DNA of 64,000 bases from positions 1-64,000 of IMG/VR virus record IMGVR_UViG_3300015261_000001; one strand, 5' to 3'. The position numbers were made by a program, and so were the translations under genes. The notes under the pieces are model-generated. The model saw nothing but the letters and a program-made list of their open reading frames with translations, was not told the DNA's origin and made no database searches. Shown piece after piece: positions 3,470-44,891 of this stretch (position 1 is the stretch's first letter; every line of letters begins with the position of its first letter). The DNA comes from a virus.

Positions 3470-3474
3470 CCTGG

Positions 3475-3927: not shown

Positions 3928-3938
3928 TTACGTTGCCT

Positions 3939-4379
3939 TTACGCCATGACACGAGCGGTATGTTTTTGCCCACGAATGAGTTCTTCCAGAAGACTGATCT
4001 CTTTCAAGTCAGCTTCCCGTTTACCTTCCTTCCGCGTCGGCAGCTTCGCCAGATAGCGTTTCTGCGTTAGCAAGGCAGAAGGGCTGTACGTCCAGACACC
4101 GTCAACACAAACGATCCCGGTATCGGGTTCGAACTCGTGGATATCAACGTCTGGCGCGTACTTGATCAAATCGGAAATACCTTCTTCCGTAATGACCAGA
4201 TGTTTCCCCGACAAGAACCGAAACACGCCAGTGGAAACGTCAACATCAAGGTCTTGGGTGTCCTGTCGGATACCAAACATCACCAGCGCAGATCCAGCTG
4301 AGAGGATGACATTACGTGCATCCTCGTTCAGCTCGCCTAACAATTGAGTATAACGTTCCACTACTTGTGCTTTGTCCAT
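3939..4379 (-). CDS. Nucleotidyltransferase-fold (MNT/AbiEii-like) protein, active site intact
   Basis: I chose the second ATG (146 residues) because TTAGGGC lies eight bases upstream of it; an ATG six bases earlier (4385) is also possible but too close to that site. Residues 27-47 read SAGSALVMFGIRQDTQDLDVD, giving the G-S...D43-L-D45-V-D47 pattern of nucleotidyltransferase-fold enzymes that bind Mg-NTP. The C-terminal QKRYLAKLPTRKEGKREADL helix matches the downstream K/R...D signature of AbiEii/MNT-type proteins. This family transfers a nucleotide to RNA, tRNA or protein, and several members belong to toxin-antitoxin or phage-defence systems, but the target here cannot be read from sequence. 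It lies 11 bases upstream of its degenerate paralogue. Confidence 0.75.
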   Translation of the reverse strand: MDKAQVVERYTQLLGELNEDARNVILSAGSALVMFGIRQDTQDLDVDVSTGVFRFLSGKHLVITEEGISDLIKYAPDVDIHEFEPDTGIVCVDGVWTYSPSALLTQKRYLAKLPTRKEGKREADLKEISLLEELIRGQKHTARVMA

Positions 4380-7176: not shown

Positions 7177-7226
7177 GGTATGAATTCTTCAAAAGTTGTA
7201 CGTCTCTAGATAATGAGGTCAAGGGT

Positions 7227-14782: not shown

Positions 14783-14802
14783 GAAGTAAACCTTTTGGAA
14801 AA

Positions 14803-14833
14803 GGAGGAGCAAGGCTGTTAACCCTGCTCCTCC
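14803..14833 (-). terminator. Terminator after fibre paralogue C
   Basis: A GGAGGAGC stem with its complement, extended by a few pairs with one mismatch, lies just beyond the stop at 14839. On the minus strand it is followed by TTTTCC. Confidence 0.65.
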
Positions 14834-14838
14834 AATGG

Positions 14839-26610: not shown

Positions 26611-29600
26611 ATGGTCGCTCCAACTCGCGGTACCACCAGAGGTAATCGACATGTCGACATCGCTCGGGTGCGCCAGGACCTCACGTCACTGAACCCTGTT
26701 ATTGCGAGCACTATGCGCAACGCTGTACCGCGCAACGGGCAGTCGCCAGAGGGTGATGAGGTTACCGGCAAACGCACCGTCAACCCGTTTAAACTGGAAC
26801 GGTTGAGCAACATCATCAGTAACAACATTAACGCAGCTACCGACCTGCGAACCATCACACCATACATTGATAAAGCGGAGCTGATCTGGCGGACAATCCT
26901 GCTCTATCCAAACGGGAAGCAGGACAAGATCCTTCGGTACGACACTCAACCCTCACCAAAGAAAAACGCAAAATTGCACAGCGAACTGTTGCCCATCTGG
27001 GACAACTACTTCACGAATGGCTATAAGATCGAGAAAGATTTAAAGAAGATTGTCAGCGATATTCTCATTAATACTGGGAGTTACACGCTGTTCAATTTGA
27101 GTCGTCCAGGCTTGGATTACTTGATCAACGGCAGTGAACTTGTTGAGGTTGCTGGTAACGAATCCTTCAAGGCTGATGCTACCCGGTTCTACGATGAAGA
27201 GTTTCGTAATGAAGCTGGCAAGGTCATCGTCAAGAACAAGGGTAAATTCATTCGTGACGCTGATGTAACTGTTGTTCCGGTGAGTGGTCTGGAAGCCATC
27301 TTCGGTGGCGCTGCTCCGTATCAGGCTGACGAAGTTAAGTTGTTCGGTAAAGAAGACCCGAACAACGATTTCGGCATCACCATCACTGACAACCCGGCTG
27401 TGCTGTACTTGCAGAAGTTCGGGCAAGTCAAGCGTCGGAAAGACGTTGAAAGTGTGACGGGGATGGAAAACCTGAACCTCATGATTCAATCCGCCTTGCA
27501 CAGTAAGGATGTGAATGATCGTGGGGATGATGGCGAGAACTACCTCGGTCCGAACGATCACCGCCCTACCAAAGGCAAGGGTCCGGCTAAACCGGTCGCT
27601 ACAACTCAGAACCTCACCGACAAACAAGTAGAGGAGTTGAGCAACAAGTTCTTCCCTACTCGTAATGTGGACAGCCAGACTATTCAGTTCGTCAAGCCTA
27701 ACGACGCATTGAAGGTTGCTCCTTACGGTCGTGGTCTGACTTGGCACGTACCGAGTGAGGCGGTTATTCCGATCCACTTGAACGGAAGCAACGGCACTCA
27801 GATTGACTTCATCTTTCTGACTGACCCGAATGACGGTAGCTTCCTGAAGAACACGAATGACTTCGAGTTCTATCAAGGGTTGAAGAAGAACAGCGACGGC
27901 ATTGCCAACAAGCCAAAGAACGGTAGCGGTAACAGCCTGATCTCCAGCCTTCGTGCAATTCAAGAAGGTAAGGAATGTGACTTCGACATGTCGGAGTTCG
28001 CAGATATGGCCAAGTCCAACATCGTCCGTCGTTTCATGCAGTCGATGGTCAGCGGTCGTGGTGACAACGTCAGCATTCAGCTCGACGAAGAAACCAACAA
28101 GATCTTCCTGCAACGGATGTTCCGTCGTCAAGGTATTCGCTGCTTGTATGTTCCTGGCGAAGCTGTTACCTACATGGCACTGAACTACAACCGTTTGGGT
28201 ATTGGTCAATCGCTGACCCAGATGGCGAAGATGCACATCGCTCGTTTGGCAGCTATGGACCTCGCGGATGCAATGGCCAACTTGGAAGCGGCCACGCCGC
28301 ACAGCCTGATGACCATTAACGTCAACGAGAAGTCGCCTGAGCCGTTTGCTGACATCGCCGCAGCCCGTGCTACGTACTTCGAGGCTAACCCTCGTCTGCA
28401 CAGCATCCTGGCCACTGCACAGTTGTCGGTTCCACAGATCGTGGATGCTTTGCGTGAATCGTCTCTGACGGTTAAGGTGAATGCGGGTGACAACCCTCAT
28501 ATCCCTGTTCACGATATCCAACTCGAACACATGGACAAAACCAACTTCAAGCCGATTGATCAAAATAGCCGGCAAGAACTGTTGAATAAAGTCTCCAACT
28601 ATCTTCACTTGTCGAAGAGCTGGTTGGATGTGTCGGACGATCAGAACAACTTTGCGATCGAGGCTCTGGCCGAACACCAAATGCTTCTGAACCAGGTGGT
28701 TAACTGGCAGGAAGAGTTGGGTGATTTCCTTGTTGACTTCCAGCGTAAGCATGCTCAGGTTTGTGCTCCTTTGATGAAGGAGTTGATCGACAAGATCATG
28801 GAAAACAAAACCATGTGGATGCCGGACAGCAAGGAGAAGATCGAAGGTTCCGATGATACTGTTGTGAAGACAATCCTGTTGGACTTCCTGAACAACATGC
28901 AGTGCCTGTTCCCCACACCTACCAGCATTGAAACCACTACCAAGATTAAGGACAGTCTGGATGTGGTTAAAGATCTGGTGGACAAGTGGGTCGAGATGGC
29001 TGGTCACTCGGGTAACTTGGAACAAATCGCTAAGCTCTTGGGCTTTGGTGACTCCGAGGCGAAAGATCTGGAAATGGTTAAGGCTCAGATTAAGTCTGTG
29101 TTCTTGGCCGAAGCTTTCCGTCGTTACAACTTGCCAATGCCATTCGACGATATCATCAACGACGGTAAAGGCGGTGGTCTGGCTTCGATGGTTAACGCTA
29201 TCGTGCATCAACGTCAGAACATTGGTGAGTTCTTGGCAACCATGATGGTCGGTATCAGCGAAGTTGATGCCAAGGTTCTCAAGACACACGCCAAGAAGAT
29301 CGACAAGGCTGTAGCTAACTTGGCTAAGGCTAAGGAGGCAGCTGAAGGTGAAGCCGAGGTTGATTCTTCTTTGACCAACGGCGATCCAAATGGTGATGGT
29401 TTGAGCGCTGATGACGCCCCGGCGCCTGAAGACGGTCTCGATACCGATGCACCACCAGTGGATGACGACACCCCACCTGTTGATGATCCAGAAGCTCCGG
29501 TAGAAGAGGAGGAGGAAGAGGAAGAACCTGAGCCAAGTCCTGACGATAACGCCCCACCAGCAGATGGTGATGCGCCAGCGCCAGCGGGTGACGGAACTGA

Positions 29601-29637
29601 TCCGACCAAGAACGACCCTACCAAAAACCCGTTCTAA
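26611..29637 (+). CDS. Probable portal protein
   Basis: I start at MVAPTRGTTRGN (26611) because GAGG lies nine bases upstream and earlier codons overlap the divergent gene; the product is 1008 residues. Residues ~660-730 (ELLNKVSNYLHLSKSWLDVS... then MLLNQVVNWQEELGDFLVDF) resemble the stem/clip helices of myovirus portal proteins, which form the twelve-subunit DNA gate of the head. The segment AQLSVPQIVDALRESSLTV at residues 603-621 recurs in the 279-residue protein at 44052-44891. The last ~90 residues are Pro/Asp/Glu-rich with an eight-Glu run, a disordered acidic tail. Its position upstream of the RNA polymerase and capsid genes agrees with the phiKZ gene order. Function is inferred from fold-like features only. 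Confidence 0.6.
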   Translation: MVAPTRGTTRGNRHVDIARVRQDLTSLNPVIASTMRNAVPRNGQSPEGDEVTGKRTVNPFKLERLSNIISNNINAATDLRTITPYIDKAELIWRTILLYPNGKQDKILRYDTQPSPKKNAKLHSELLPIWDNYFTNGYKIEKDLKKIVSDILINTGSYTLFNLSRPGLDYLINGSELVEVAGNESFKADATRFYDEEFRNEAGKVIVKNKGKFIRDADVTVVPVSGLEAIFGGAAPYQADEVKLFGKEDPNNDFGITITDNPAVLYLQKFGQVKRRKDVESVTGMENLNLMIQSALHSKDVNDRGDDGENYLGPNDHRPTKGKGPAKPVATTQNLTDKQVEELSNKFFPTRNVDSQTIQFVKPNDALKVAPYGRGLTWHVPSEAVIPIHLNGSNGTQIDFIFLTDPNDGSFLKNTNDFEFYQGLKKNSDGIANKPKNGSGNSLISSLRAIQEGKECDFDMSEFADMAKSNIVRRFMQSMVSGRGDNVSIQLDEETNKIFLQRMFRRQGIRCLYVPGEAVTYMALNYNRLGIGQSLTQMAKMHIARLAAMDLADAMANLEAATPHSLMTINVNEKSPEPFADIAAARATYFEANPRLHSILATAQLSVPQIVDALRESSLTVKVNAGDNPHIPVHDIQLEHMDKTNFKPIDQNSRQELLNKVSNYLHLSKSWLDVSDDQNNFAIEALAEHQMLLNQVVNWQEELGDFLVDFQRKHAQVCAPLMKELIDKIMENKTMWMPDSKEKIEGSDDTVVKTILLDFLNNMQCLFPTPTSIETTTKIKDSLDVVKDLVDKWVEMAGHSGNLEQIAKLLGFGDSEAKDLEMVKAQIKSVFLAEAFRRYNLPMPFDDIINDGKGGGLASMVNAIVHQRQNIGEFLATMMVGISEVDAKVLKTHAKKIDKAVANLAKAKEAAEGEAEVDSSLTNGDPNGDGLSADDAPAPEDGLDTDAPPVDDDTPPVDDPEAPVEEEEEEEEPEPSPDDNAPPADGDAPAPAGDGTDPTKNDPTKNPF
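28417..28473 (+). repeat. 19-residue segment shared with 44280-44336 (copy in portal)
   Basis: Encodes AQLSVPQIVDALRESSLTV. The other copy differs by one residue (E for D). At DNA level 46 of 57 bases agree and nearly all differences are silent third-position changes. Confidence 0.9.
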
Positions 29638-29663
29638 GTAAAAAGCAAAAAAAAGAAAGGTAC

Positions 29664-29698
29664 TACCCTACCCAGACCTTTACGGTCTGGGTAGGGTA
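29664..29698. terminator. Bidirectional terminator after portal gene
   Basis: A perfect 15-base-pair stem beginning TACCCTACCCAGACC closes a TTTAC loop. The A-run on its left (from 29640) provides a T-run for minus-strand transcripts ending the 29714 gene; the plus strand has TATATGCCGCATTTTG after it. Confidence 0.85.
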
Positions 29699-29713
29699 TA
29701 TGCCGCATTTTGA

Positions 29714-30271
29714 TCAGACGACTTCTGGATAGATGTACGTCGGGCCGAGACCTTGCATGGAGCGCATGAAGTTGATCGACTTCAGAATACGGTCGGTGGC
29801 CGGATCAGCAATGACGAACTGAATGCTGTCGAGGTCCGCTTCCTGGAACTTGGCCTGCTCGATGTAGCGGGTAACTGGACCCACCAGCGAAACAGCCAGC
29901 TCTTCTGGAGTCGGAACACCGTCCGGCAGAGGAAGGTCGACCAGCAGCTCAGTCAGCGAATCGATCAACGGTTGAACGCTGACAACACCGTCAATGATCA
30001 GGACTGCCAGAGGCTGTGCAGCGCGGAACAGCAGGCTGGCCGCTTCAGCGTTGCCTTCTTCCAGTTGCTTGTCGGTGACCAGCGGAGTTGCCGGTGCATC
30101 GCCAACAGCAGGAGCAGCGCCATCCGGTGCAGTAGCCGGAGCTGGAGCGGATTGGTCGTTCACCTGTTCAGCGTTAGGCTGTTGGGTGGTGTTTGGTTTT
30201 TGGTTGTTACCGCCTTGATTTTTAGCCACGAGAAGCACCCTTTGCGTTGATAATTTTTGAAAGATTGACAT
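29714..30271 (-). CDS. Unknown protein with disordered N-terminus
   Basis: The 185-residue protein has a short hydrophobic N-terminal stretch, then a Gln/Asn/Pro/Ala-rich linker (~residues 20-65, APAPATAPDGAAPAVGDAPA), then a helical domain with LLFRAAQPLAVLIIDGVVSV and a mixed C-terminus. The ribosome-binding site is weak (AAGATAAATACT before ATG). It is separated by 13 bases from the gene upstream. I do not recognise it. The linker and small folded domain would fit a minor virion or decorating protein. Confidence 0.5.
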   Translation of the reverse strand: MSIFQKLSTQRVLLVAKNQGGNNQKPNTTQQPNAEQVNDQSAPAPATAPDGAAPAVGDAPATPLVTDKQLEEGNAEAASLLFRAAQPLAVLIIDGVVSVQPLIDSLTELLVDLPLPDGVPTPEELAVSLVGPVTRYIEQAKFQEADLDSIQFVIADPATDRILKSINFMRSMQGLGPTYIYPEVV

Positions 30272-30284
30272 AGTATTTATCTTG

Positions 30285-31010
30285 TCAGTTATCAGTTACG
30301 GTGATCCACCAACCATCACCTTCACGGTGGATGTTCACGCCACTGAATGTAGGCCGAACATCCAGGCCGCCGAAATACAGCATATACTTGCGATAAGGAA
30401 GCAAATCAAAGAAGTTATCTTTGATGAACCCCATCACAATTTCGCTGGAATAATCGGTGGCTTGTTTCGCGATAGCCTTGTTGCCGTTCTGTCTGGCTTC
30501 AATAAGACTGTCATTGATATTGCTCAGAATGTTCTTGGTGCCATCACGGTCCATTTCCCACATGACGTTCAAATCAATAACGAAAGAATGGCCTTCGTGT
30601 TTACCGAAATACGGTAGACCGCCAAGATCATCGACAACCGTTACTGATTTATTACGCCCCTTGACCGCAACTTCCTTGGGGATACGGGCTATGAACCATT
30701 GTGAATCAGGAACCAGAACATTAACCCCGTTACCGGTGTTGTAGGTGGCCAAGGAGAGCGGTGTTTTCCAATAGCCTACATAGAGACGGTATTCATGCTT
30801 ATCGTCGTCTATACGGCCGTACAGGTTGTTCTCGTTGAGGTAACGGTGAACTTCGTCTGCTATTTCGTTGTGGGGCTTGATATCTGGTGGGTATTGACCC
30901 AGATCCACGAACTCTTTGAGTAACTGTTTAAGGATGGAGACAAAATCAATAGATCCGTAAATACGGACATAGCTGTTCAGCAGCACCATCACTCGGTTGT
31001 CTTTATGCAT
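30285..31010 (-). CDS. Unknown 241-residue protein
   Basis: TAGGAG precedes the ATG by seven bases, a strong signal. The protein is mixed alpha/beta, with a helical N-terminus (SILKQLLKEFVDLGQYPPD) and strands in the centre (HEYRLYVGYWKTPLSLATYN, then KSVTVVDDLGGLPYFGK). It ends in Trp/Thr-rich GDGWWITVTDN. No motif is recognised. It is in a tight run with the genes on either side (9 and 13 bases). Confidence 0.6.
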   Translation of the reverse strand: MHKDNRVMVLLNSYVRIYGSIDFVSILKQLLKEFVDLGQYPPDIKPHNEIADEVHRYLNENNLYGRIDDDKHEYRLYVGYWKTPLSLATYNTGNGVNVLVPDSQWFIARIPKEVAVKGRNKSVTVVDDLGGLPYFGKHEGHSFVIDLNVMWEMDRDGTKNILSNINDSLIEARQNGNKAIAKQATDYSSEIVMGFIKDNFFDLLPYRKYMLYFGGLDVRPTFSGVNIHREGDGWWITVTDN

Positions 31011-31019
31011 TTTGTTCTC

Positions 31020-31385
31020 CTACTTCCGTTTAAGTAGATTCCGTAACCATTGGAACCGTTTAGGTTTTTCTTTGACTATCCGCAACGTCATAAGCAATGG
31101 CCACAATTGCGGATTGTTGCGAAGGATCTTGAAAGCTGTTTGGCTTTCGGTTTCCCAGTACGCGTCAATCATGTTGGTGAGTTGAACTTGCAAGACAAGC
31201 ATCTTGACCAGCGCCATAGCAAAGGCGTTATCAGGATTACCTGCGGTGTTCGCTGCATACCACAAACACCATGCTTCAGAAACCGTGCCCGTCTTCACAT
31301 TGAAGAACGTCGGTTCTTCTGGAAACTGTGCGCGAATCCCCATAACGAACTCGCGGGCTTCCTCTTCTTCTTCTTTACTGGACAT
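31020..31385 (-). CDS. Small helical protein, unknown
   Basis: I start at the ATG at 31385 (MSSKEEEEEAREF, 121 residues) because GGTGGAG lies a few bases upstream; the longer frame begins with TTG. The N-terminus has five consecutive Glu residues; the middle is an amphipathic helix (AFAMALVKMLVLQVQLTNM) and the C-terminus is basic (KEKPKRFQWLRNLLKRK). This charge polarity suggests binding to nucleic acid or to a protein with complementary ends. It is not recognised. Confidence 0.6.
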   Translation of the reverse strand: MSSKEEEEEAREFVMGIRAQFPEEPTFFNVKTGTVSEAWCLWYAANTAGNPDNAFAMALVKMLVLQVQLTNMIDAYWETESQTAFKILRNNPQLWPLLMTLRIVKEKPKRFQWLRNLLKRK

Positions 31386-31410
31386 GACTCCACCCAAAAT
31401 AAATAAGTAG

Positions 31411-31436
31411 GGGAAGAGGGTCGTGTGACCCTCCCC
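31411..31436 (-). terminator. Terminator after 31446-31859
   Basis: GAGGGTC pairs with GACCCTC around GTGT, extended by G-C pairs past a two-base bulge. On the minus strand it is followed by the T-rich TACTTATTTATTTT. Confidence 0.7.
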
Positions 31437-31445
31437 GTACCTGGA

Positions 31446-31859
31446 TCAGATGCGGTCGATACGATCTTTCATCAGATCGACCAGCATCTCACGTGTTACT
31501 GGAGTGAGGTGCTCAGACAGCGGCTTGAAGTCCGTACCGAAGGTTTGTGCGTAGTAGCTGGCCTCGCCGCCGTCTTCTTTGGTGACCTTGCAGTAAACAT
31601 CCAGCAAGTAAGTTTCAGCAGCACGGAACTCAGTGAACACCACTTGAACTTTTGGATGTTCGCGGCGGTCCGGGAACACCGTGTTCAGTTGTGGCACCCA
31701 GCGTTGGACTGCTTTAAGGTAACGAGTTTGTACCTCTTCCAGCATGTCGGTGGCTTTTTCGTTGAAGTTACTCCATTCACGGAAGTTCTCCAACTTGTTC
31801 ATGAGTTGCTGGTCGGAAAGATCAGCGAATTGATTCGGGGTAAGGTCTACGGTATCCAT
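31446..31859 (-). CDS. Small acidic protein, unknown
   Basis: The ATG at 31859 (MDTVDLTPNQFADL, 137 residues) is preceded by GAGGA and avoids the upstream terminator that a longer reading would include. The first half is helical (QLMNKLENFREWSNFNEKAT), the second half has strands, and the end is REMLVDLMKDRIDRI. It lies between two strong hairpins and so is probably transcribed as its own unit. No family is recognised. Confidence 0.6.
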   Translation of the reverse strand: MDTVDLTPNQFADLSDQQLMNKLENFREWSNFNEKATDMLEEVQTRYLKAVQRWVPQLNTVFPDRREHPKVQVVFTEFRAAETYLLDVYCKVTKEDGGEASYYAQTFGTDFKPLSEHLTPVTREMLVDLMKDRIDRI

Positions 31860-31890
31860 AGAAAAATCCTCGTTTAAAAGAAAAAAGAAA

Positions 31891-31908
31891 AGGAGCCGTG
31901 AGGCTCCT
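31891..31908 (-). terminator. Terminator after glycine-zipper gene
   Basis: AGGAGCC and GGCTCCT pair around GTGA. On the minus strand the hairpin is followed by TTTTCTTTTTTCTTTT, a textbook U-tract. Confidence 0.9.
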
Positions 31909-31922
31909 CTCTTGTGGGGCAA

Positions 31923-32252
31923 TCACTCAGGAGAGCGATCACCACCGATTTTGGAGATGCTATCGATCAGGCCAGTGCCCAGACCGCCGATCGCCATGCC
32001 GAACATTGCCGACGTGGTGCCACCCAGAACTTTGATCGCCAGGCTTTCGCTTTCACCACCGCCCAGGATGTCTGCAAAGGCGTAGCCAGCAGCTGCGCCG
32101 ATTGCACCACCAGCGGCAGCAGAGATCAGAGAAGAACCTTCAGCGTAGTTGGAGAGAGCACCAGCTACTGCACCGACGATGCCGGCGGCGTGTACTGCGT
32201 TGAAACCGGATTTGCGTTGACCGACGAATGCGTTAACTTGTTTGGAACTCAT
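31923..32252 (-). CDS. Small glycine-zipper membrane protein
   Basis: The ATG at 32252 (MSSKQVNAFVGQ, 109 residues) has CTAGGAG about ten bases upstream. From residue ~24 on, the protein is nearly all Gly/Ala/Ile/Val in short hydrophobic helices (AAGIVGAVAGALSNY, AAAGGAIGAAAGYAFADIL, GMAIGGLGTGLIDSI), the glycine-zipper pattern of membrane-inserting or pore-associated proteins. It is a single-gene unit between a candidate promoter (32319-32326) and a strong terminator, so it is independently expressed. It could disturb the host membrane or be a minor virion membrane-contact protein; no specific homologue is recognised. Confidence 0.6.
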   Translation of the reverse strand: MSSKQVNAFVGQRKSGFNAVHAAGIVGAVAGALSNYAEGSSLISAAAGGAIGAAAGYAFADILGGGESESLAIKVLGGTTSAMFGMAIGGLGTGLIDSISKIGGDRSPE

Positions 32253-32318
32253 GGTGCGTACTCCTAGGACGTAATAAAAGTAGACTAGCAAAGACTGCCA
32301 TGTCTTAATTCACCCTAA

Positions 32319-32326
32319 GAATATAG
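32319..32326 (-). promoter_or_regulatory. Candidate promoter core CTATATTC (minus strand)
   Basis: Minus-strand CTATATTC with A/T-rich sequence on its far side (TTTAAATTTAAG...CTTTTCAGAT) lies ~67 bases before the glycine-zipper start. It resembles the CTATATTAC elements at 32978-32985 and 43885-43892, which also have CAGA/TGT before the core. Confidence 0.35.
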
Positions 32327-32351
32327 ATCTGAAAAGAACTACAACTTAAAT

Positions 32352-32945
32352 TTAAAGCTTAGCTATCTTGTCACGCATTTCATTCAATTGACTTCCAAAG
32401 GCGCGCAGATAAACATTTGGGTAGCGGGCATAGCCACCATGACCAAACTTATCCTTAATGTGTTGGATAACCCCAGCCATACGCTCATCATCAGACATTT
32501 CTGGCCATTTTGCTAACCAGTATTTATTAGAACGTTCTACCATTGCTGGAACGTCATTGGGAAACCCGCGATCCGCTGCATTGATCATGGAGGTAAATTC
32601 GCTGTAGAAGTCACCTTTATAACTCGCCCTATGTTCATGACAAGCAAAGGCCACTACATTGCGCTCATGTTGCGTTGGTAGATATTTCAAGATTAATGGG
32701 TGGTCCGTGCTGCGCATGAACTCATAACTAAGGTCATGGTGGTTAACACGGCTCCACGCAAACAGATCGTGGAAGTAAGCTGCAAAAAGGATATGGACTG
32801 GATCGAAGTCATACCCTTGATCTTTGCTGATATGCATACCAGTTTTAAATACGTCCTCGAAATGATCCTGACGATGGGCTGGGTCATTCAAGGTCCAGTG
32901 AGGGGAAAACGCGGCGATCAGTTCCTGACGAATTACATCGAGCAT
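32352..32945 (-). CDS. HD-domain metal-dependent phosphohydrolase-like protein
   Basis: The 197-residue protein has the HD-superfamily pattern: His24 in AHRQDH, the His59-Asp60 pair in AAYFHDLF, further His residues (ACHEHR, ~103-105) and Asp125 in NAADR. HD proteins are metal-dependent hydrolases of nucleotides or phosphodiesters. AGGG lies about eleven bases before the ATG. The gene stands alone, with a candidate promoter 30-40 bases upstream and its own short downstream gap, among structural genes. A nucleotide-signalling or nucleotide-pool target would fit a host-takeover or counter-defence job, but that is speculation; only the fold is supported. Confidence 0.75.
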   Translation of the reverse strand: MLDVIRQELIAAFSPHWTLNDPAHRQDHFEDVFKTGMHISKDQGYDFDPVHILFAAYFHDLFAWSRVNHHDLSYEFMRSTDHPLILKYLPTQHERNVVAFACHEHRASYKGDFYSEFTSMINAADRGFPNDVPAMVERSNKYWLAKWPEMSDDERMAGVIQHIKDKFGHGGYARYPNVYLRAFGSQLNEMRDKIAKL

Positions 32946-32977
32946 AAATAAAAATCCCTGTTGTTAAGTTCATGTGG

Positions 32978-32985
32978 GTAATATA
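32978..32985 (-). promoter_or_regulatory. Candidate early-type promoter core TATATTAC (minus strand)
   Basis: Minus-strand TATATTAC lies 33-40 bases before the HD-protein start, with TTTTATACCGTATTTTTTGT on its distal side. TATATTAC is the conserved core reported for phiKZ early promoters. Confidence 0.45.
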
Positions 32986-33011
32986 GACACAAAAAATACG
33001 GTATAAAAGAA

Positions 33012-33045
33012 TACTACCTACTGTGGAATTCCACAGTAGGTAGTA
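33012..33045 (-). terminator. 34-base perfect palindrome, probable terminator
   Basis: TACTACCTACTGTGGAA is followed directly by its exact complement, with GAATTC at the centre and no spacer. It lies 24 bases after the stop at 33069 and is followed on the minus strand by TTCTTTTATACC. Confidence 0.7.
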
Positions 33046-33068
33046 AGTCTAATTTAATCGCGATTGAA

Positions 33069-37057: not shown

Positions 37058-37069
37058 TCCTTAACGTCC

Positions 37070-38206: not shown

Positions 38207-38271
38207 GTTGAGGATCCTCGGGAACAATAGTGATAGTCTTGTGCACAGACCATCATTATTAATACGGTCCA

Positions 38272-38288
38272 GAAGATAATGTAGGTTT
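38272..38288 (-). promoter_or_regulatory. Candidate promoter element, exact 17-base repeat (copy 2)
   Basis: Identical to GAAGATAATGTAGGTTT at 4693-4709. It lies ~66 bases before the start at 38206, with AT-rich AAAATATTC on its distal side, in the 232-base gap after the capsid gene. That gap otherwise holds only the hairpin at 38320-38360. Confidence 0.5.
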
Positions 38289-38319
38289 AAAATATTCTAA
38301 TCGAGTTTTCTAAATGCGC

Positions 38320-38360
38320 TATAAACCCCCTCTCCCCATTGCAGGGAGAGGGGGTTTATA
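38320..38360 (-). terminator. Terminator after major capsid gene
   Basis: A 17-base-pair stem (TATAAACCCCC... with exact complement) closes a CATTGCA loop 79 bases beyond the capsid stop. The next minus-strand sequence contains TTTAGAAAAC. It separates capsid transcripts from the promoter element at 38272. Confidence 0.8.
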
Positions 38361-38438
38361 TTTCTGCTTTGAGACTTAACGCTAACCCCCGCTATGGCAA
38401 CTCAGGGTAAGTGAGCTGCCCGTAGCTCGTAGCAGGGA

Positions 38439-40631
38439 TTATGGTGCGTTTGGGTCTACAACTGGAACGTTGGCGCCTGCATCACCGATGTTGTCGACGA
38501 TAACGCGCTTCGCGGCCAGCTTGTTGATCAGACCTTCGTTGCTCAGGAACTCGTCGGCGTCGGTGATCTCGAGAGTACCGATGATGACGTTGAGTGCCCA
38601 GTGCTTGTAGGTCGGCAGGGTCATGACCACACCGAAGTCCTGGTCGCCACGAGTGACGTTGCCTTGAACCACGATGTTTTCTTTCGACACGACGACACCG
38701 ATGCCGGCGAGCGGGTTGATCTGCTCGGAGCTGGAGTCGTTGTAAGGAACGATGATCATGCGGCCGATTTCGCTGTCGAAGTTGGTTTCAACGACTTCGA
38801 GGTTGTCGATCGGGCCGATGGTACGAGCATCACCGGAACGGAAGATGAAACGGCTGAGGTTCTGGTGAACGACGCAGGTCCATTTGTTCTTGGTGTTGCC
38901 GCTCGAGTATTCGGCGATAGCAGCCAGGCCAGAACGGGTGTTCAGCGCGGCGACGATGTCGGCGATCTCGTTGGTGATGGCAGAGCTGATTGCGTTGAAC
39001 ACATCGCCCGAACCGTTGGCGGAGATTACTTCCGACAGGGTCAGGGAACGGCGCACAGCAGTCGCGGTCACGAAGTGCTGACCGGCCAGAACTTCAGAAC
39101 CCTGGGTGTTGGAAACAACCGGAGAACCGTCGATGCTGGTGATGTAGTCGATGTGCTTGGTCGCTTCGTCGAACGCGTGCTTGGAGCACTGGTTGTTGAT
39201 GACGATCGACATGTGGGTCAACGCGAAGTCCAGCGACGCTTGGTTCACATCGTCCTTGGCGATCGGGTACTTGACCGAGATCGGGGAACGACGTTGTACC
39301 GACAGGTGTTTCTTGGCGTCGTAAACTTCAATGCGGTAGCCGAAGTTGCCGCGGTTGGTGTTGCTCACGTTCTGGGTGGTGCCAGCAGCCACAACCGAAC
39401 CAGCGGTCAGGGAGTGGATCAGCGCCTTTTGAACGCTGTCGGCGTTACCGACCTTAACGATGTTGGCAGGGTTGTTCAGTGGACGCAGAGCGAACACGGT
39501 AACCGAGCCGGAGTTCAGGCTGAACTCGTTGGTCTGACGCTGGAAAGTACCGGTCAGGGTAACGGACAGCAGCGGCTCGTAGCCGGCGTCTTTGAAGGTC
39601 TTGAACAGAACTTCGCCGATGGCGTTGCCGTCTTTGTCGGTAACCGAGAAACCAGGCAGTTGCTTGATGCGCAGGTTCAGAGCACGGTCATCGGTGGTCT
39701 GAGCGTTGCTGGCTGGTGCGAACGTGTTGTTCGACATGGCCGCGGTGTTGATGAAGAAGTTCTTGTCGGTACCGGCCAGTTTGGCGGCGACGGCAACAGA
39801 CTTCACGGAAATCGAGTTGGACTCGAGTTCGTCAGTCGAAGTCCATGGACGCTGACCAGGAACTTGGGTCAGAGCCAGCAGGTTCGGAACGTTGACCGGA
39901 ACAGCGAACATCTGGGTGTTGTGGGTGGAACGACCGTAGGCGTCGCCCTGCATGTAGCTGACCGGGGTCGGTGCAACCAGAGCAGTAGGGGCGAAGAACA
40001 GGCGGTTGTCGCTCTGAGCGTCGTCAGGGAAGACGGTGTGCACAGACAGCACTTCGTCTTTGAACATTTCGCCGGAGCGCAGCAGGCCGAAGATCGGACG
40101 CAGATCCGACGCCGATTGCCAGGCGGTGTTACCGTAGGCGTAGGTACCCAGGCCAGCAGCACGAACGATCAGCTCGGCGCCTTCTTCCTGGTAGCCAACA
40201 CCGACGGTGGCGAACAGAGCTTCAGCGGCTTTGGTTTGCAGGTGGGACTGGGCGTTCAGGGTCAGGTTGGCTGCCTTGATGTCCTGTTCCTTACCCTGGA
40301 AGTTCTGCATCGAGAAACCTTCCAGACCGGTCACAGCGCTCAGACCGTCTTTCGCCTCGTCGAAGATCTTCACGAGTTCGTGAGGAGTCTCTTTGAGGTT
40401 TTGGCGTTTCAGAACGCCGAGGATGGCATCCTGGGTACGGCCGCTGTGGGTGCCGATGACTTGTTGCACGATCAGAGCTTCGTTACCTTGAACGCTGCTC
40501 AGAGCGGTTCCTACGTCGGTGAAGCTTTCATTGCCGGTAACGGTAGCCAGTCCGCCGGAGGTCAGCGATTGACGGATCGCGGCGAACAGGTTTTTACCCC
40601 CGTTCAGGGAGGTTTGAAGTTGCTTGGCCAT
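38439..40631 (-). CDS. Major capsid protein precursor (phiKZ gp120-like)
   Basis: The 730-residue product is close to the size of the phiKZ capsid precursor (747). The N-terminal ~115 residues look like a propeptide with repeated G-N-E and G-L-E motifs: VTGNESF (residues 32-38), VQGNEAL (48-54) and VTGLEGF (100-106), all candidates for the S/A/G-x-E specificity of phiKZ-type prohead protease. The mature part (from about NLTLNAQSHLQTKAAEALFA) is the HK97-type shell protein that forms the icosahedral head. Codon use is strongly optimised, typical of the most abundant virion protein. The 5' leader holds an 18-base perfect palindrome at 40672-40689. The start has AGGA upstream, a somewhat long spacing. 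Confidence 0.8.
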   Translation of the reverse strand: MAKQLQTSLNGGKNLFAAIRQSLTSGGLATVTGNESFTDVGTALSSVQGNEALIVQQVIGTHSGRTQDAILGVLKRQNLKETPHELVKIFDEAKDGLSAVTGLEGFSMQNFQGKEQDIKAANLTLNAQSHLQTKAAEALFATVGVGYQEEGAELIVRAAGLGTYAYGNTAWQSASDLRPIFGLLRSGEMFKDEVLSVHTVFPDDAQSDNRLFFAPTALVAPTPVSYMQGDAYGRSTHNTQMFAVPVNVPNLLALTQVPGQRPWTSTDELESNSISVKSVAVAAKLAGTDKNFFINTAAMSNNTFAPASNAQTTDDRALNLRIKQLPGFSVTDKDGNAIGEVLFKTFKDAGYEPLLSVTLTGTFQRQTNEFSLNSGSVTVFALRPLNNPANIVKVGNADSVQKALIHSLTAGSVVAAGTTQNVSNTNRGNFGYRIEVYDAKKHLSVQRRSPISVKYPIAKDDVNQASLDFALTHMSIVINNQCSKHAFDEATKHIDYITSIDGSPVVSNTQGSEVLAGQHFVTATAVRRSLTLSEVISANGSGDVFNAISSAITNEIADIVAALNTRSGLAAIAEYSSGNTKNKWTCVVHQNLSRFIFRSGDARTIGPIDNLEVVETNFDSEIGRMIIVPYNDSSSEQINPLAGIGVVVSKENIVVQGNVTRGDQDFGVVMTLPTYKHWALNVIIGTLEITDADEFLSNEGLINKLAAKRVIVDNIGDAGANVPVVDPNAP

Positions 40632-40671
40632 AATGAGTCAGGTCCTGTGGAAAATTTGAGAACAATCGCTT

Positions 40672-40689
40672 TTCTATTGCGCAATAGAA
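40672..40689 (-). promoter_or_regulatory. 18-base palindrome in capsid leader
   Basis: TTCTATTGCGCAATAGAA, a perfect palindrome, lies 41 bases upstream of the capsid start. On the minus strand, promoter-like TCATTATATTTTATG precedes it. It could be an operator or a hairpin that stabilises the capsid mRNA. Confidence 0.45.
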
Positions 40690-40716
40690 CTGCACATAAA
40701 ATATAATGAGCAATCC

Positions 40717-41259
40717 CTAGGGGTTCTGTATATGGACGAGTTTATACACCTCGGCCATCGTGAGTTCCCCCAAAGCAGGTTTTATTACAGATCCAAAATG
40801 GGTGTCCAAATATCCAACACGCCCATATATTGTCTCGAGAACAGCGGCAGAGATATTCTTGGCGTTCAGTTTCTCCCAACTTCCGATGTGTGGATTGGCG
40901 GTGTTAGCGGCAATCAGAAGAACCTGTCCCACTTTCGTGGAGTGGAAAGAGGTAGCTCCACGCAGGTACTCGGTTATTGCTTTACTGTCGATCGCATTAA
41001 ATGCTTCGGCGACCATACCACCGTTGTAACCCTCACCAAACGAATGAGCTGCGTCCGGCATGTCCACACCGAACAGCTGAGCCGCTGCGCGTTGGGTTGC
41101 GATGAACTGAGCCACTTCATTGTAAGTGAGCTTGTCATGGTATGCAGATATTTTTCGCAATCCGTCAAAAGGCACGGTTTGCAGAGCCAGGGCTTCTAAC
41201 ATTTCCCCGGTCACAAAATACAACTCGAACGGAAAACCGTTAGGGTATTTGAAGATCAT
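40717..41259 (-). CDS. Unknown protein upstream of capsid gene
   Basis: The 180-residue protein has AGGAG nine bases before the ATG; the same palindromic ribosome-binding site also serves the divergent helicase gene. It is mostly helical (YNEVAQFIATQRAAAQLFGV) with a C-terminal MAEVYKLVHIQNP. No motif is recognised. It is divergent from the helicase and is the first gene of the capsid unit. The long open frame on the opposite strand within it has no ribosome-binding site and is a shadow. Confidence 0.6.
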   Translation of the reverse strand: MIFKYPNGFPFELYFVTGEMLEALALQTVPFDGLRKISAYHDKLTYNEVAQFIATQRAAAQLFGVDMPDAAHSFGEGYNGGMVAEAFNAIDSKAITEYLRGATSFHSTKVGQVLLIAANTANPHIGSWEKLNAKNISAAVLETIYGRVGYLDTHFGSVIKPALGELTMAEVYKLVHIQNP

Positions 41260-41268
41260 AGACTTTGC

Positions 41269-41280
41269 ACTCCTAGGAGT
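41269..41280. promoter_or_regulatory. Palindromic ribosome-binding site shared by divergent genes
   Basis: ACTCCTAGGAGT reads AGGAG on both strands, placed a few bases before the plus-strand ATG at 41286 and nine before the minus-strand ATG at 41259. One sequence thus supplies both Shine-Dalgarno sites in a 26-base gap. Confidence 0.8.
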
Positions 41281-41285
41281 TAGGC

Positions 41286-42818
41286 ATGAACGATTTACTG
41301 GTGTTGGTCAAACTGTTGACAGCACTGTACCAGGCAAAGAAGCTAAAAGACCCAAACCTGGTAACTGAGCTGACGGAGATCCTGGAAGAACTCCCAGTAC
41401 CCCCTCCAGATATTCTGACGCAAGACAAGAACCTTCGGGAAAGCATCCGGGCAGCAATTCACTGGCTGCTGAGTCAGGACGACGACGACCCACTTATAAA
41501 ATCTCTCTTAATGCAACGCGTGGCCATGTTTGTCAAGGGCGACGACGGTATTAAGGACATTATCGAAGATGGGTTGGAAGAACTGGCGACGGAAGAACTC
41601 ACTCGTAAGTTGGTCTATAAACAGATCACCGAGATTCGTCTGAATTCTGAAGACGAGACTTTCCAGAAGAAGTTCAAGCAGAAGATCAAGGATTTTCTTT
41701 ATAAGGATCATGCTGAACTGAAACGAGAGGACTGGGCTAACCTGATGGACTTGATTACCGAGAAGGTAAACAGTTCGTTTGGTGAACGTCAGTCTGAGGT
41801 TGTGGTGAGTGTTAACACCAACGACCCTGAAAGCTTCTTCGGCATCATCGAGATGGCCAAGAAGGAAAACAGTAAAGAAGGTATTCTCCGTTCAGGTATC
41901 CAAGGACTTAACCAAGGTCTGGAACCGGATGGTGGTTTCCGTCGTAGCAAGATGTACATGCTGGAAGCACTGACCAACCGTGGTAAGTCTTTTGGTATGG
42001 CTCACATTCTCGCTTCTGTGGGTATGTACAACGTACCACAGCTTCGGAACAAGGCCAAGATTCCAACGCTGTTGTTTGAGTCCTCAGAAGACACCATGGA
42101 CTTGGTGATCATGCGGATGTACAAACTGGCGTGCACAATCGATCTGAAAGTAGACGGTGACTTCCAATCTGCTGAAACGACCAACATCGTTGATGCGATT
42201 GCCAACTGCTTCAAGAAGAACGGTTGGTATCTGGTGATGAACCAGATTGAAGCTTACAAAGATAACATCTCCAACATGTTTGCTCGAGTTCGTAAGCTTG
42301 AGCTGAAAGGTCACGAGATCATCTTCTACGGCTACGACTACCTGGCCCTGCAAAACATCGACAAGGTTCCGGGTGAAAGTAAGTCCGACAAACTTCAGTT
42401 GGTTTACCGTCGTGTTCGTTCGTTTGTAACTGCTCGTGGTATCTGCTTCGTAACTCCTCACCAGTTGAGTCCAGAAGCGAAGAAGCTGCTGAAAGAACTT
42501 GATGATGAGTCAGAAGTTTACTTTGCTCGAGAAGTGGCCGGTAAGTCGATGACAGAAACGTCGACGAAGATCACCAACGAAGTAGACGGTGTGATTTGTA
42601 TTCATGTTGCTAAAACTGCTACAAAGACCTACTTCACTGGTGCTATTGGCAAACAGCGTGGTGAAGGGTGTTCACCAGAGAAGCGATTCTTTATCTATGA
42701 TCTGGATCCTGTACTTGGTTTGAAACATGACATCAATGGCAAACCAGCGTTCCGTCGAAGCTTGCAACAACGCTTCAGCGATAGTGGCGATGTCGAGAAC
42801 GATATCGACATGATGTAA
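41286..42818 (+). CDS. DnaB-like replicative DNA helicase
   Basis: The 510-residue protein has a helical N-terminal half (~residues 1-190) and a RecA-like C-terminal half. There A-L-T-N-R-G-K-S (near residues 230-237) matches the Walker A of DnaB-type helicases (A-R-P-x-x-GK[ST]). LFESSEDTMD follows, and a Walker B-like IIFYGYDYLAL lies near residue 340. A later VTPHQLSPEAKKL block resembles the DnaB sensor/Q-loop region. Such helicases unwind the phage fork as hexamers. It is a single-gene plus-strand unit ending in the strong terminator at 42870-42906. AGGAG lies six bases before the ATG. A primase domain is absent. Confidence 0.82.
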   Translation: MNDLLVLVKLLTALYQAKKLKDPNLVTELTEILEELPVPPPDILTQDKNLRESIRAAIHWLLSQDDDDPLIKSLLMQRVAMFVKGDDGIKDIIEDGLEELATEELTRKLVYKQITEIRLNSEDETFQKKFKQKIKDFLYKDHAELKREDWANLMDLITEKVNSSFGERQSEVVVSVNTNDPESFFGIIEMAKKENSKEGILRSGIQGLNQGLEPDGGFRRSKMYMLEALTNRGKSFGMAHILASVGMYNVPQLRNKAKIPTLLFESSEDTMDLVIMRMYKLACTIDLKVDGDFQSAETTNIVDAIANCFKKNGWYLVMNQIEAYKDNISNMFARVRKLELKGHEIIFYGYDYLALQNIDKVPGESKSDKLQLVYRRVRSFVTARGICFVTPHQLSPEAKKLLKELDDESEVYFAREVAGKSMTETSTKITNEVDGVICIHVAKTATKTYFTGAIGKQRGEGCSPEKRFFIYDLDPVLGLKHDINGKPAFRRSLQQRFSDSGDVENDIDMM

Positions 42819-42869
42819 TTCCAACCAACACTTAACCTTAAAGCAAAAAAAAAAGACAAGCCATAAAGA

Positions 42870-42906
42870 CTACCCCTCCCTAGCCTCTGAGGCTAGGGAG
42901 GGGTAG
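42870..42906. terminator. Bidirectional terminator after helicase gene
   Basis: A perfect 16-base-pair stem beginning CTACCCCTCCCTAGCC closes a TCTGA loop. The ten-base A-run upstream (from 42846) gives the minus strand a T-run for the gene ending at 42927; the plus strand continues TCTATGTTTGCTTTTGG. Confidence 0.88.
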
Positions 42907-42926
42907 GTCTATGTTTGCTTTTGGTA

Positions 42927-43445
42927 TTACGCCGCGGTAGCAATGATCTGCTTGTAACCGCGTTCAGCCAATTCTTCATCACCTTCAAAGATGTATTTGA
43001 ATTGAGCCAGGTAAGCTTCACGCTCCCATGGGAATTCCACATAACCTTGAAGGGTAACGTTAAAGTGCTGACCTTCCCAGATCATGTGGCCAGCTTCTAC
43101 GATAGCCAGACGGCCATCCAGGACTTGTTGTACGTGAGTAAGCTCATGCACAAGGTAAGACCGACGGAAACGCTCACGCGCATCCTCAGGTATCTGCTTG
43201 CTCTCATTCACCATGGCATCTGGATAAATGATCAGTGCTAACTCGCGGCCATGCTTGGGAAGGATTTCTAATGTTTCTGGATTGATCTGAAGTACGACCC
43301 CGCCAACTTCACCGTAAGCTTCTACGGCTGGGAACATGCCGCGTGTAGCCATGCAAACGTGGATGTCGTATTGTTCCAACATCGCAACACCCTCTTCACC
43401 AAAGAGAGCGAGCACTTCTTCCATTTTGGTTCGCAACAGTTTCAT
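42927..43445 (-). CDS. Zincin metallopeptidase-like protein (HExxH)
   Basis: The 172-residue protein has H100-E-L-T-H104 in a helix and, about 37 residues later, EFPWEREAYLAQ, whose Glu141 or Glu143 can be the third zinc ligand. This is the layout of small gluzincin-like peptidases with an HELTHVQQ...WEREA pattern. The rest shows strands and helices with no membrane anchor, so it should act in the cytoplasm. AAGGAATCC lies before the ATG. It follows the 43466-43810 gene, and both are downstream of a candidate early-type promoter at 43885. A role in host or phage protein processing is possible; the substrate is unknown. Confidence 0.72.
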   Translation of the reverse strand: MKLLRTKMEEVLALFGEEGVAMLEQYDIHVCMATRGMFPAVEAYGEVGGVVLQINPETLEILPKHGRELALIIYPDAMVNESKQIPEDARERFRRSYLVHELTHVQQVLDGRLAIVEAGHMIWEGQHFNVTLQGYVEFPWEREAYLAQFKYIFEGDEELAERGYKQIIATAA

Positions 43446-43465
43446 GAAAAGGATTCCTTAATTAA

Positions 43466-43810
43466 TTAACGAGTTTTCTTCAGGGCGGAAGTTACCAAAC
43501 TGTTACTCCAGTTGGAATCTTCGTTCATGAGTTTAAGCAGGGATGGACTGGCCTTAACCAAGTTACTCATGTCCATTTCAAAACGCCCGCCTTTACGGAT
43601 ATGCAGGACGCCCAACTGGTGACCAAATTCAGTACTGGCGAATTCGATGAAGTCGCCTTCATTGCAATACGAGATAGCCAACTGCAACATCCGCGGCATC
43701 GCGGTGTCGAAGTAATTGTAATGCCGCACCATGATGACATCCTTGGAGCGACCGCGGTACATAGTTGCTACAACGCGACGGCGAGAAGGGCTGTTGAAAT
43801 CAGTGCTCAT
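43466..43810 (-). CDS. Small basic protein, unknown
   Basis: The 114-residue protein has GGAG eight bases before its ATG. The N-terminus is basic (RRRVVATMYRGRSKDVIMVR), the centre is strand-rich (GDFIEFASTEFGHQLGVLHI), and the C-terminus is helical. It is the first gene after the TATATTAC-like element at 43885-43892 and precedes the metallopeptidase with a 20-base gap, so they probably form one unit. No motif is recognised. Confidence 0.6.
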   Translation of the reverse strand: MSTDFNSPSRRRVVATMYRGRSKDVIMVRHYNYFDTAMPRMLQLAISYCNEGDFIEFASTEFGHQLGVLHIRKGGRFEMDMSNLVKASPSLLKLMNEDSNWSNSLVTSALKKTR

Positions 43811-43884
43811 GTTGTTTCTCCGAATGTGTTTGAACGCTTACAACGTACAGGTAAACAGCTTAGTTACTAAACTTATCTACCCGG

Positions 43885-43892
43885 GTAATATA
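43885..43892 (-). promoter_or_regulatory. Candidate early-type promoter core TATATTAC (minus strand)
   Basis: Minus-strand TATATTAC lies ~75 bases before the start at 43810, with ATTTAACTTATACTTCATTT on its distal side. It shares the element CAGACCTATATTACCC with similar sites at 32319 and 32978, and TATATTAC is the core reported for phiKZ early promoters. Confidence 0.5.
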
Positions 43893-43921
43893 GGTCTGAA
43901 ATGAAGTATAAGTTAAATAAA

Positions 43922-43956
43922 CCCCTCGCCCCCGGAAAGGCCGGAAAGGCGAGGGG
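43922..43956 (-). terminator. First of two tandem hairpins after 44052 gene
   Basis: CCCCTCGCC pairs with GGCGAGGGG around a 17-base loop that contains the direct repeat CCGGAAAGG twice. The following minus-strand sequence is TTTATTTAACTT. Together with the hairpin at 43976 it fills most of the 241-base gap 43811-44051. Confidence 0.75.
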
Positions 43957-43975
43957 AGAAAAACATAAGTTAAAT

Positions 43976-44006
43976 CCCCCTCACCTCGGGATACCGAGGG
44001 AGGGGG
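43976..44006 (-). terminator. Second tandem hairpin, nearest the 44052 stop
   Basis: CCCCCTC and CCTCGG (separated by a bulged A) pair with CCGAGGGAGGGGG around GATA. On the minus strand it is followed by ATTTAACTTATG. Confidence 0.75.
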
Positions 44007-44051
44007 TTAATTGAGTTGGTGTAGTTAAATAACAGTAACAGTAATTAATTA

Positions 44052-44891
44052 CTATTTGCTGATAGGCCGTTGTCCGTAAAGCTCCGGGCTATCGATGTCG
44101 ATGTTCTTGCTGATACCACGGAGTGTTCCCAAACCTTCGATGGTCAGAATGTCGGCCCCGCTGTTCCAGGCTTCAGTGACTCGGGAGATCAGGTGGTCCA
44201 GTGGATCAACGCCCTCTTCCAACTGTGTTTCTTCAACACAGTTACCCATGTCGATCGACAACGTTGGTTTCTGTGCAGGGACAGTCAGGGACGATTCGCG
44301 CAGAGCTTCCACGATCTGTGGAACAGAAAGTTGCGCGGTATTCAGGGTTTCCCGCAGACTAGGGTGGGCATCCCAGAACTTTTGAATCTCGGCCAGGTCT
44401 TCTGGAACAATGTCGTTGAACGTCTTTTCCATCGGGGAAACAACGCGTTCGCCGGTCGTCATGTCTTCGGCGTAACCTTCTTTCGACGGAGGATCTACTT
44501 TGTCGAGCAGGTAATGAATCGTGGCAGACAAGTAGTCGAGATGTTCGCCAAGATGCTGCAAATAGGTATCTGGGTCCAGAGAAGCACAAGGACCGTGCTC
44601 TTCGGTAATCACCCGACTAGGGATGTGTTTAAACCCGTCGGTACGAATAGCCGCCAGCAACTCTTTGGTTTCCTGAGTGTTGAAGATGGTGTAGCCCAGT
44701 TGCTGAAAGAATTTCTTCAATGCTTCGCGGATGCCACCTGGATAGGTGTCCAGAGTGTGGCCATCCAGTGCTTTACGCATCGGGCAATTTTCATCCACCC
44801 AAGCGGCATTCCACCCGTAGTTTTTTGGTTGTTCTTCATTAGTCCGGCCAATAGCATCCATTGCCGCATTCAGATCTTTTTGCGAAGTCAT
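44052..44891 (-). CDS. Unknown protein carrying a portal-derived segment
   Basis: The 279-residue protein has GAGAG before its ATG. Residues ~186-204 (AQLSVPQIVEALRESSLTV) are identical but for one residue to residues 603-621 of the portal candidate, and flanking positions also match (HPSLRETLNT against NPRLHSILAT). The rest has no recognised motif: a helical N-terminal half with QQLGYTIFNTQETKELLAAI, then DMTTGERVVSPMEKTF, and a C-terminus with SGADILTIEGLGTLRGISKN. Its differences from the portal are nearly all silent, so the shared segment is under selection as protein. It may contact the same partner as the portal, or bind the portal itself during assembly; neither can be shown here. Confidence 0.65.
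   Translation of the reverse strand: MTSQKDLNAAMDAIGRTNEEQPKNYGWNAAWVDENCPMRKALDGHTLDTYPGGIREALKKFFQQLGYTIFNTQETKELLAAIRTDGFKHIPSRVITEEHGPCASLDPDTYLQHLGEHLDYLSATIHYLLDKVDPPSKEGYAEDMTTGERVVSPMEKTFNDIVPEDLAEIQKFWDAHPSLRETLNTAQLSVPQIVEALRESSLTVPAQKPTLSIDMGNCVEETQLEEGVDPLDHLISRVTEAWNSGADILTIEGLGTLRGISKNIDIDSPELYGQRPISK
44280..44336 (-). repeat. 19-residue segment shared with portal (copy in 279-residue protein)
   Basis: Encodes AQLSVPQIVEALRESSLTV. It matches 28417-28473 at 18 of 19 residues and 46 of 57 bases; the exact match GTTCCACAGATCGTGGA lies in the middle. Confidence 0.9.

Follow-up and report, generated by a model that had tools for sequence, protein, structure and literature searches.

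The window analysed here is a 64,000-nucleotide stretch of a 238,193-base virus record, which was assigned to an EL-like jumbo phage on the basis of synteny and of the 67% identity of its portal protein to that of Pseudomonas phage EL. The portal gene occupies positions 26611..29637 on the plus strand and encodes a 1008-residue protein of the phiKZ gp129 / EL gp103 type (phrog_3004, E 2e-245). Its reading frame is open back to 26446; however, 17 homologues agree on a start at 26611, which places the 19-residue core considered below at residues 603-621. The protein matches solved portals both by sequence (36za, 11ed 'Portal protein gp36' and 9xpe PHIKZ129, with E values from 1e-30 to 5e-33) and by profile search (E down to 3e-42). 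The AF2 model built from 33 sequences was of modest confidence (mean pLDDT 56), and the one built from 17 sequences was unusable (43). Foldseek of the portal model retrieved the phiKZ portal 9xpe first (E 4e-20) and HFTV1 next, and the portals of lambda and T4 with weaker E values. On these sequence and model comparisons, the initial annotation was right to call this protein a portal candidate: it is a true portal of the phiKZ type, belonging with phiKZ gp129, SPN3US gp81 and EL gp103.

The 279-residue protein and its locus

The second gene of interest, at 44052..44891 on the minus strand, is preceded by CAGAGAGTAACGCA with an SD-like GAGAG and encodes a protein of 279 residues. Its upstream neighbour, a phrog_3245 / EL gp71 homologue (45208..46548, minus strand), is conserved in that position in the relatives G005 and G031 and serves as the left-hand marker of the locus. 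Downstream lies a 172-residue gene with the motif HELTHVQQ (42927..43445, minus strand), a homologue of which (31%) is found in the same place in G031, and a convergent gene for a DnaB-like helicase (41286..42818, plus strand) marks the right-hand side.

The N-terminal part of the protein (residues 46-138; 44478..44756, minus strand) is homologous to a 125-residue protein at the same locus in G005. For the C-terminal tail (residues 207-279; 44055..44273, minus strand) no relative was found, and the similarity of the C-terminal region to repeats in the G031 protein described below, though suggestive on inspection, was not clearly beyond that of shuffled sequences, 18 of 300 of which reached the score. 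Between the two lie residues 152-204 (44280..44438, minus strand), which BLASTP aligns with the portal and which we call the graft. Searches of the whole protein against Pfam and PDB returned nothing, the PDB matches being designed TIM barrels with weak scores, and its own patterns retrieved no homologue from named phages or IMG/VR. It carries two candidate prohead-protease sites of the form [SAG]xE: SKE-138, on the border between the N-terminal part and the graft, and SPE-270.

A portal clip stretch in the 279-residue protein

According to the initial annotation, a 19-residue core of the portal, AQLSVPQIVDALRESSLTV (28417-28473, plus strand), recurs as AQLSVPQIVEALRESSLTV in the 279-residue protein (residues 186-204; 44280-44336, minus strand), the two copies differing at a single residue and at 11 of 57 bases, with nearly all of the changes silent. 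Our comparison reproduced these positions and counts, the base differences falling twice at first, never at second and nine times at third codon positions. The likeness continues beyond the core: portal residues 565-621 (28303..28473, plus strand) and residues 152-204 of the 279-residue protein share 30 of 57 identities by BLASTP (53%, E 2e-11), with an E value that stays near 1e-6 once corrected for every possible pairing of the phage's genes. In a profile search of the genome, the stretch was found at these two places only. On these alignments the 19-residue match forms the core of about 57 homologous residues, the others lying upstream of it, and is not a product of chance.

In the modest-confidence AF2 model, the portal stretch runs strand-helix-helix-helix-strand between two long helices; we read these as the stem helices, and the elements enclosed by them as a strand, a helix and a helical hairpin of the clip domain, in the place of the T4 clip. 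Judged by this secondary structure and topology, by comparison with solved portals and by the description of the T4 portal, the stretch is part of the portal clip. It is kept in all aligned portals, and the core retained in the graft represents the well-conserved hairpin and strand (SLTV) of the clip. The 279-residue protein is not itself a portal. Of the roughly 1000 residues of a portal it contains no more than about 55, and of the wing, stem, clip and crown only the clip is matched, by residues 152-204.

A search with the segment gave portals as the significant matches listed in phages, and a pattern scan of 84,980 genomes found no relative. The latter result, and the lack of a Pfam or PDB match for the 279-residue protein, led us to reject a widespread cellular motif or an HTH domain. 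A proteome-wide control with reversed sequences gave a single false match at E<1e-4, compared with 149 real ones. In a control of 134 families, the portal-derived matches all lay within the clip. Most of the remaining real matches represent the inner-body motif or Hint/intein-like segments of the terminase and helicases. Segments of other core proteins were also seen in ORFans, namely a 42-residue piece of RNAP beta and pieces of phrog_3520.

Second copies in related phages

Of about 36 EL-like virus records, 6 contain a second, non-portal copy: the present one (G000), G002, G011, G016, G019 and G031. The recipient proteins differ. In G031 the recipient is a 707-residue protein at the locus of the 279-residue protein, and the two resemble each other in the portal-like stretch (score 61, against 29.5 +- 4.1 for shuffled sequences) but not in their N- and C-terminal parts. 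In G002, G011 and G019 the recipient adjoins the prohead protease and carries the graft as a C-terminal extension, whereas in G016 it is a 586-residue protein, which differs at several core positions. Named phages gave no tblastn match to the G031 and G016 recipients. Altogether the graft occurs in at least three unrelated recipient families and is sporadic across phages, so that the single fixed pair of proteins implied by the initial annotation gives way to different, mutually unrelated recipients in different phages.

Homologues of the recipients that lack the graft are also present: the 125-residue protein of G005 is without it, as are EL gp193 and the product of 132671-133414 in G000, both homologues of the protease-adjacent protein. 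A decayed copy was found in G018 and half modules in G009 and G010. Given its sporadic presence and the decayed copies, the graft is dispensable.

Age of the copy and selection on the recipient side

The graft of the 279-residue protein agrees with the portal of its own genome at 53 of 72 bases, and the portals of G003 and G006 score alike. The own portal is nearer in bases to the portals of G005 (62/72) and G006 (60/72). Since the copy is no closer to the own portal than to those of other phages, it must be old, and both a gene conversion tract and a recent duplicate of the own portal were ruled out by the silent-site distances. The duplication claimed earlier stands, but the copy is not a recent derivative of this portal.

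The accompanying claim of purifying selection on the protein was upheld. Between the two 19-codon cores dN is 0.05 and dS 1.0, and 18 of 19 residues are kept in G000 despite silent sites near saturation relative to the portal. The recipient-to-recipient comparison of G002 with G011 shows purifying selection on the recipient side: their cores differ by 14 silent and 2 replacement changes (dN 0.04, dS 1.5, dN/dS ~0.03, p 3e-6). No other segment of these two recipients is as constrained as the core, which has a dN below that of the rest of the same protein. A piece of the portal that sits in unrelated proteins and is kept by selection suggests, on sequence grounds, a reusable docking module.

Possible role of the graft

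At the portal clip, the packaging motor hands over to the neck. The T4 clip comprises gp20 residues 279-358; gp17 and gp13 attach there, and a 24-residue clip peptide (288-311) alone binds gp17 and inhibits packaging (PMC4493910). Because the clip forms the outer face of the portal, on which the large terminase docks in T4, followed by the neck protein, and because the T4 peptide blocks packaging, the same outer partner would be the likeliest target of the graft. We therefore favour, with a probability of about 0.45, the reading that the graft is a portable portal-clip docking module in accessory proteins, most likely for the large terminase or the neck adaptor. The T4 precedent makes either a better guess than the scaffold or protease named in the initial annotation. 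A counter-point is that the gp17-binding peptide, placed solely by the order of structural elements, matches the upstream helix, while it is the hairpin after this helix that the grafts keep best. The sporadic presence of the graft, its decayed copies, the deviant core of G016, the lack of sequence similarity to T4 gp20 and the modest confidence of the AF2 model also count against this reading.

On this reading, an older protein of about 135 residues at a variable locus would have gained a portal clip piece of about 55 residues, followed by a tail, so that the 279-residue protein would be a mosaic; several EL-like jumbo phages would have placed the clip piece in accessory proteins of unrelated kinds, either through repeated events or through spread. 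The graft would let the accessory protein bind the outer partner of the portal and so deliver its own domain to the packaging vertex; alternatively, it may compete with the portal and thereby time or tune packaging. We consider it possible, though rather doubtful, that the clip-derived hairpin acts as a transferable address tag, with its carriers brought to the packaging vertex via terminase or neck and the protein set of the vertex evolving by module capture.

A homotypic contact, in which the graft binds the portal itself and anchors the accessory protein there or regulates ring assembly, appears unlikely. In portal rings, adjacent subunits are interlocked through their clip strands and helices, so that a grafted hairpin could join a portal subunit or ring. 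The inter-subunit beta-sheet formed by T4 clips (PMC4493910) is consistent with this, as are the conserved hairpin and SLTV strand of the graft core and the position of the G002, G011 and G019 recipients beside the prohead protease, a head-assembly locus. However, the residues that continue the strand after SLTV in portals (KVNAG) are replaced by PAQKP in the G000 graft, and SLTV is absent from the G019 and G031 grafts, so a strand swap is not the common denominator.

It is quite improbable that the grafts are functionless residues of ectopic recombination, which would insert pieces of core genes into rapidly evolving ORFs. The RNAP beta and phrog_3520 pieces in ORFans and the decayed or half copies of G018, G009 and G010 would fit such a process, but the constraint on the G002 and G011 grafts, the near-complete core of G000 at nearly saturated silent sites and the exclusive origin of the portal copies from the clip argue against it.

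A decoy role also has a low probability; here the recipient would act as a dominant-negative mimic, either titrating the motor with which a co-infecting relative packages its DNA or holding back the packaging of the phage's own genome. The recipients vary between phages and occupy variable loci, as competition genes often do, and the core of the 279-residue protein is equally like its own and other phages' portals. The inhibition of T4 packaging by the clip peptide alone (PMC4493910) points the same way, but a mimic so near the own clip should also strike the own motor unless it is timed. Constraint at the DNA level (a recombination, packaging or homing-nuclease site), suggested by a 17-base exact run common to both copies, was rejected on the codon-position pattern of changes (9 of 11 at third positions, none at second), and the recipients of other phages have residues, not bases, in common.

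For the preferred docking module, a close parallel is the T4 gp20 clip peptide, a short clip fragment that acts outside the portal, as is proposed for the graft; it is, however, an experimental peptide and not a gene product, and hhalign profile comparison of the EL-like clip with gp20, including the gp17-binding peptide, detected no similarity. The graft may represent a natural counterpart of that packaging-inhibiting peptide, and a naturally transplanted clip piece under selection would be a ready-made probe for the clip partner in phiKZ-like phages. It also bears on how accessory proteins reach or regulate the clip in giant phages. The graft also shows that ORFans of these phages can be put together from parts of core virion proteins, a partial explanation for some of the proteins that have no relatives.

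The capsid-targeting sequence of T4 is N-terminal, is not portal-derived and directs proteins into the core, whereas the graft is internal or C-terminal and derives from the portal. The two are alike in that a short shared module routes, or in the graft would route, unrelated phage proteins into one assembly, in T4 the internal head proteins (PMC5694885). In the genomes studied here, the inner-body or internal head protein family, with its GxEGFF...SIWDFFF motif, likewise has a short motif common to otherwise different EL-like proteins; these proteins form recognisable paralogue families, whereas the portal graft sits in unrelated proteins.

Portal clip segment in a second protein

The initial annotation had reported a 19-residue segment common to a portal candidate (28417-28473) and a 279-aa protein (44280-44336), and both locations were borne out, with 18 of 19 residues identical and 11 of 57 bases different. 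By codon position, nine of these base differences fall in the third and none in the second. Whole-protein BLASTP gave a single long match (30/57 identical, E 2e-11), far from chance even when the E-value is corrected for the number of gene pairs in the genome. Thus the homology spans about 57 portal residues (565-621), with the 19-residue segment (603-621) as its core. A profile of the region found the module at exactly two places in the whole 238,193-base record (G000).

The portal gene occupies 26611-29637 (plus strand, 1008 aa); its start is agreed by 17 homologues, and that of a 1063-aa ORF is too early. The product belongs to phrog_3004, is 67% identical to EL gp103, and resembles in sequence the solved phiKZ gp129 and two further solved portals. 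An AF2 model built from 33 sequences, of modest quality (mean pLDDT 56), retrieved the phiKZ portal as the top Foldseek match (E 4e-20), ahead of those of HFTV1; the lambda and T4 portals matched with weaker E-values. The stretch is modelled as a strand (564-571), three helices (578-592, 595-601, and 607-616) and a strand (619-625), flanked by long helices (535-561 and 681-717). In this model it is placed like the T4 gp20 clip, residues 279-358 between the stem helices (PMC4493910). Profile comparison with T4 gp20 revealed no demonstrable sequence similarity. A T4-like crown, wing, stem, and clip were also predicted for a relative, SPN3US gp81 (PMC5694885). The clip stretch was found in 29 of 29 aligned portals, and residues 152-204 of the 279-aa protein derive from it.

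Recipients of the clip module

A module search of EL-like virus records identified one portal copy in almost all of them; six also have a second copy, outside the portal. The recipients are the 279-aa protein, a C-terminal extension of the protein encoded beside the head maturation protease (G002 and G011), a member of the same protease-adjacent family (G019), a 586-aa protein (G016), and a 707-aa protein (G031). The extension is absent from EL gp193 and from the protease-adjacent protein of G000 itself. Decayed or half modules occur in G018, G009, and G010, and weakly in G005 and G014. A 401-aa, possibly hydrolase-like ORF of G005 (L082, near 23032) has the upstream half only (TLTVEVDPADPEPERTVALARQAFNEAQ, weak E 0.003). 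In thirteen named phages, among them EL, RisingSun, OBP, Miami, and Vibrio phages, the only copy is that of the portal, and a pattern scan detected no module in bacterial genomes.

The 279-aa protein (gene 44052-44891, minus strand) has no relatives in Pfam, PHROG, or PDB; in 50,697 phage records it has no homologues outside the graft, for which all significant matches are portals. Its residues 46-138 are homologous to a 125-aa protein of G005 (29%, E 2e-11 to 4e-9), which is encoded at the same locus, between an EL gp71 homologue and a convergent DnaB gene, and stops short of the graft. The portal-like piece was thus gained by, or lost from, a pre-existing gene of a variable locus, where EL, RisingSun, and FishSpeaker have different genes or none. 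The 707-aa recipient gene of G031 also lies there; the resemblance of its product to the 279-aa protein is confined to the portal-like stretch, which aligns with a score of 61 (shuffles 29.5 +- 4.1), similarity of the flanking parts being not clearly above shuffles. Exactly at the border of the old domain and the graft, an [SAG]xE motif (SKE-138) resembles the sites that prohead proteases of this phage group cleave and offers no more than a lead to a putative cleavage site. Two tandem GC-rich hairpins immediately 3' of the gene (43920-44015) are likely terminators. Downstream, a possibly metalloprotease-like 172-aa protein with a HELTHVQQ motif (42927-43445, minus strand) is kept at the same place in G031.

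The case is one of several in EL-like jumbo phages where a piece of the portal clip, kept by selection, has been grafted into another protein. The earlier interpretation is supported in part: portal identity and selection on the core stand, the fixed portal/partner pair being abandoned. A limited literature search found no comparable grafted clip, which is weak evidence of novelty.

Selection, age, and proposed role

Between the window portal and graft, the 19 codons gave dN 0.05 and dS 1.0 (p 4e-4 against neutrality), a signal half of which could reflect the portal's own constraint. The cleaner test compares recipient with recipient: the 24-codon core of the G002 and G011 grafts has 14 silent and 2 replacement changes (dN 0.04, dS 1.5, p 3e-6). 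For the N-terminal domain of these two proteins dN is 0.11 and dS 0.68, and for the stretch immediately upstream of the core dN is 0.40; the graft core is thus their most constrained part. The window graft matches its own portal at 53 of 72 bases, no closer than the portals of G003 or G006, and the window portal is closer to other phages' portals than to the graft. The copy must therefore be ancient or have been acquired from a different phage. The grafts may descend from one event or from several.

The T4 clip faces outward; its partner is the terminase gp17 while packaging lasts, and gp13 once it is over. A clip peptide of 24 residues also binds gp17, and it inhibits packaging (PMC4493910). 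By analogy, the clip piece could recruit its recipient to the motor or neck through the same contact as the portal clip, or alternatively could compete for the partner of the portal clip. A portal-portal contact made by the graft is less preferred, since strand residues past the hairpin are not conserved in every graft. A neutral remnant is disfavoured by the constraint on the graft core.

Fragment sharing beyond the portal

As a control, HMMs of 134 families (each represented in three or more of five complete or long records) were compared with all 1041 predicted proteins. With Hint/intein-like segments (terminase, helicases) and an inner-body motif set apart, four partial matches were to the portal clip, one was a piece of RNA polymerase beta within an ORFan of G016, and one was a weak case; the reversed sequences yielded a single match. 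All four clip matches fall inside portal positions 561-637 of 1008, and no other part of the portal was found as a donor among the partial matches. Fragment sharing extends beyond the portal, yet the clip is the commonest donor.

The 311-aa ORFan (G016 114610-115542, minus strand; 14610-15542 of its stretch L173) joins 42 residues from RNA polymerase beta (394-435 of phrog_3295, E 6.5e-14) to a segment of about 52 residues in common with a phrog_3520-type protein, and is another protein assembled from core-protein pieces. A 222-aa protein without relatives (G000 230543-231208; 6543-7208 of stretch L167) and the conserved phrog_3520 protein (G000 86697-88160; 2697-4160 of stretch L160), both on the minus strand, have in common a segment of 56-65 residues (40-43% identity, E 6e-12) that is also carried by a 556-aa protein of G011 (191352-193019). 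Hint/intein-like segments ending in VTHNT are common to large-terminase-like and helicase genes of G000 (113182-116451 and 167561-170410, respectively), G002, G005, G011, and G016. Internal head proteins and other ORFs (window 52818-53861, 54004-55287 (-); G000 70285-71355, 224002-225075) have in common a motif of the type GxEGFFSxIGxGxxxAWxYIxKMFKSIWDFFF, which may belong to the inner body or to ejection.
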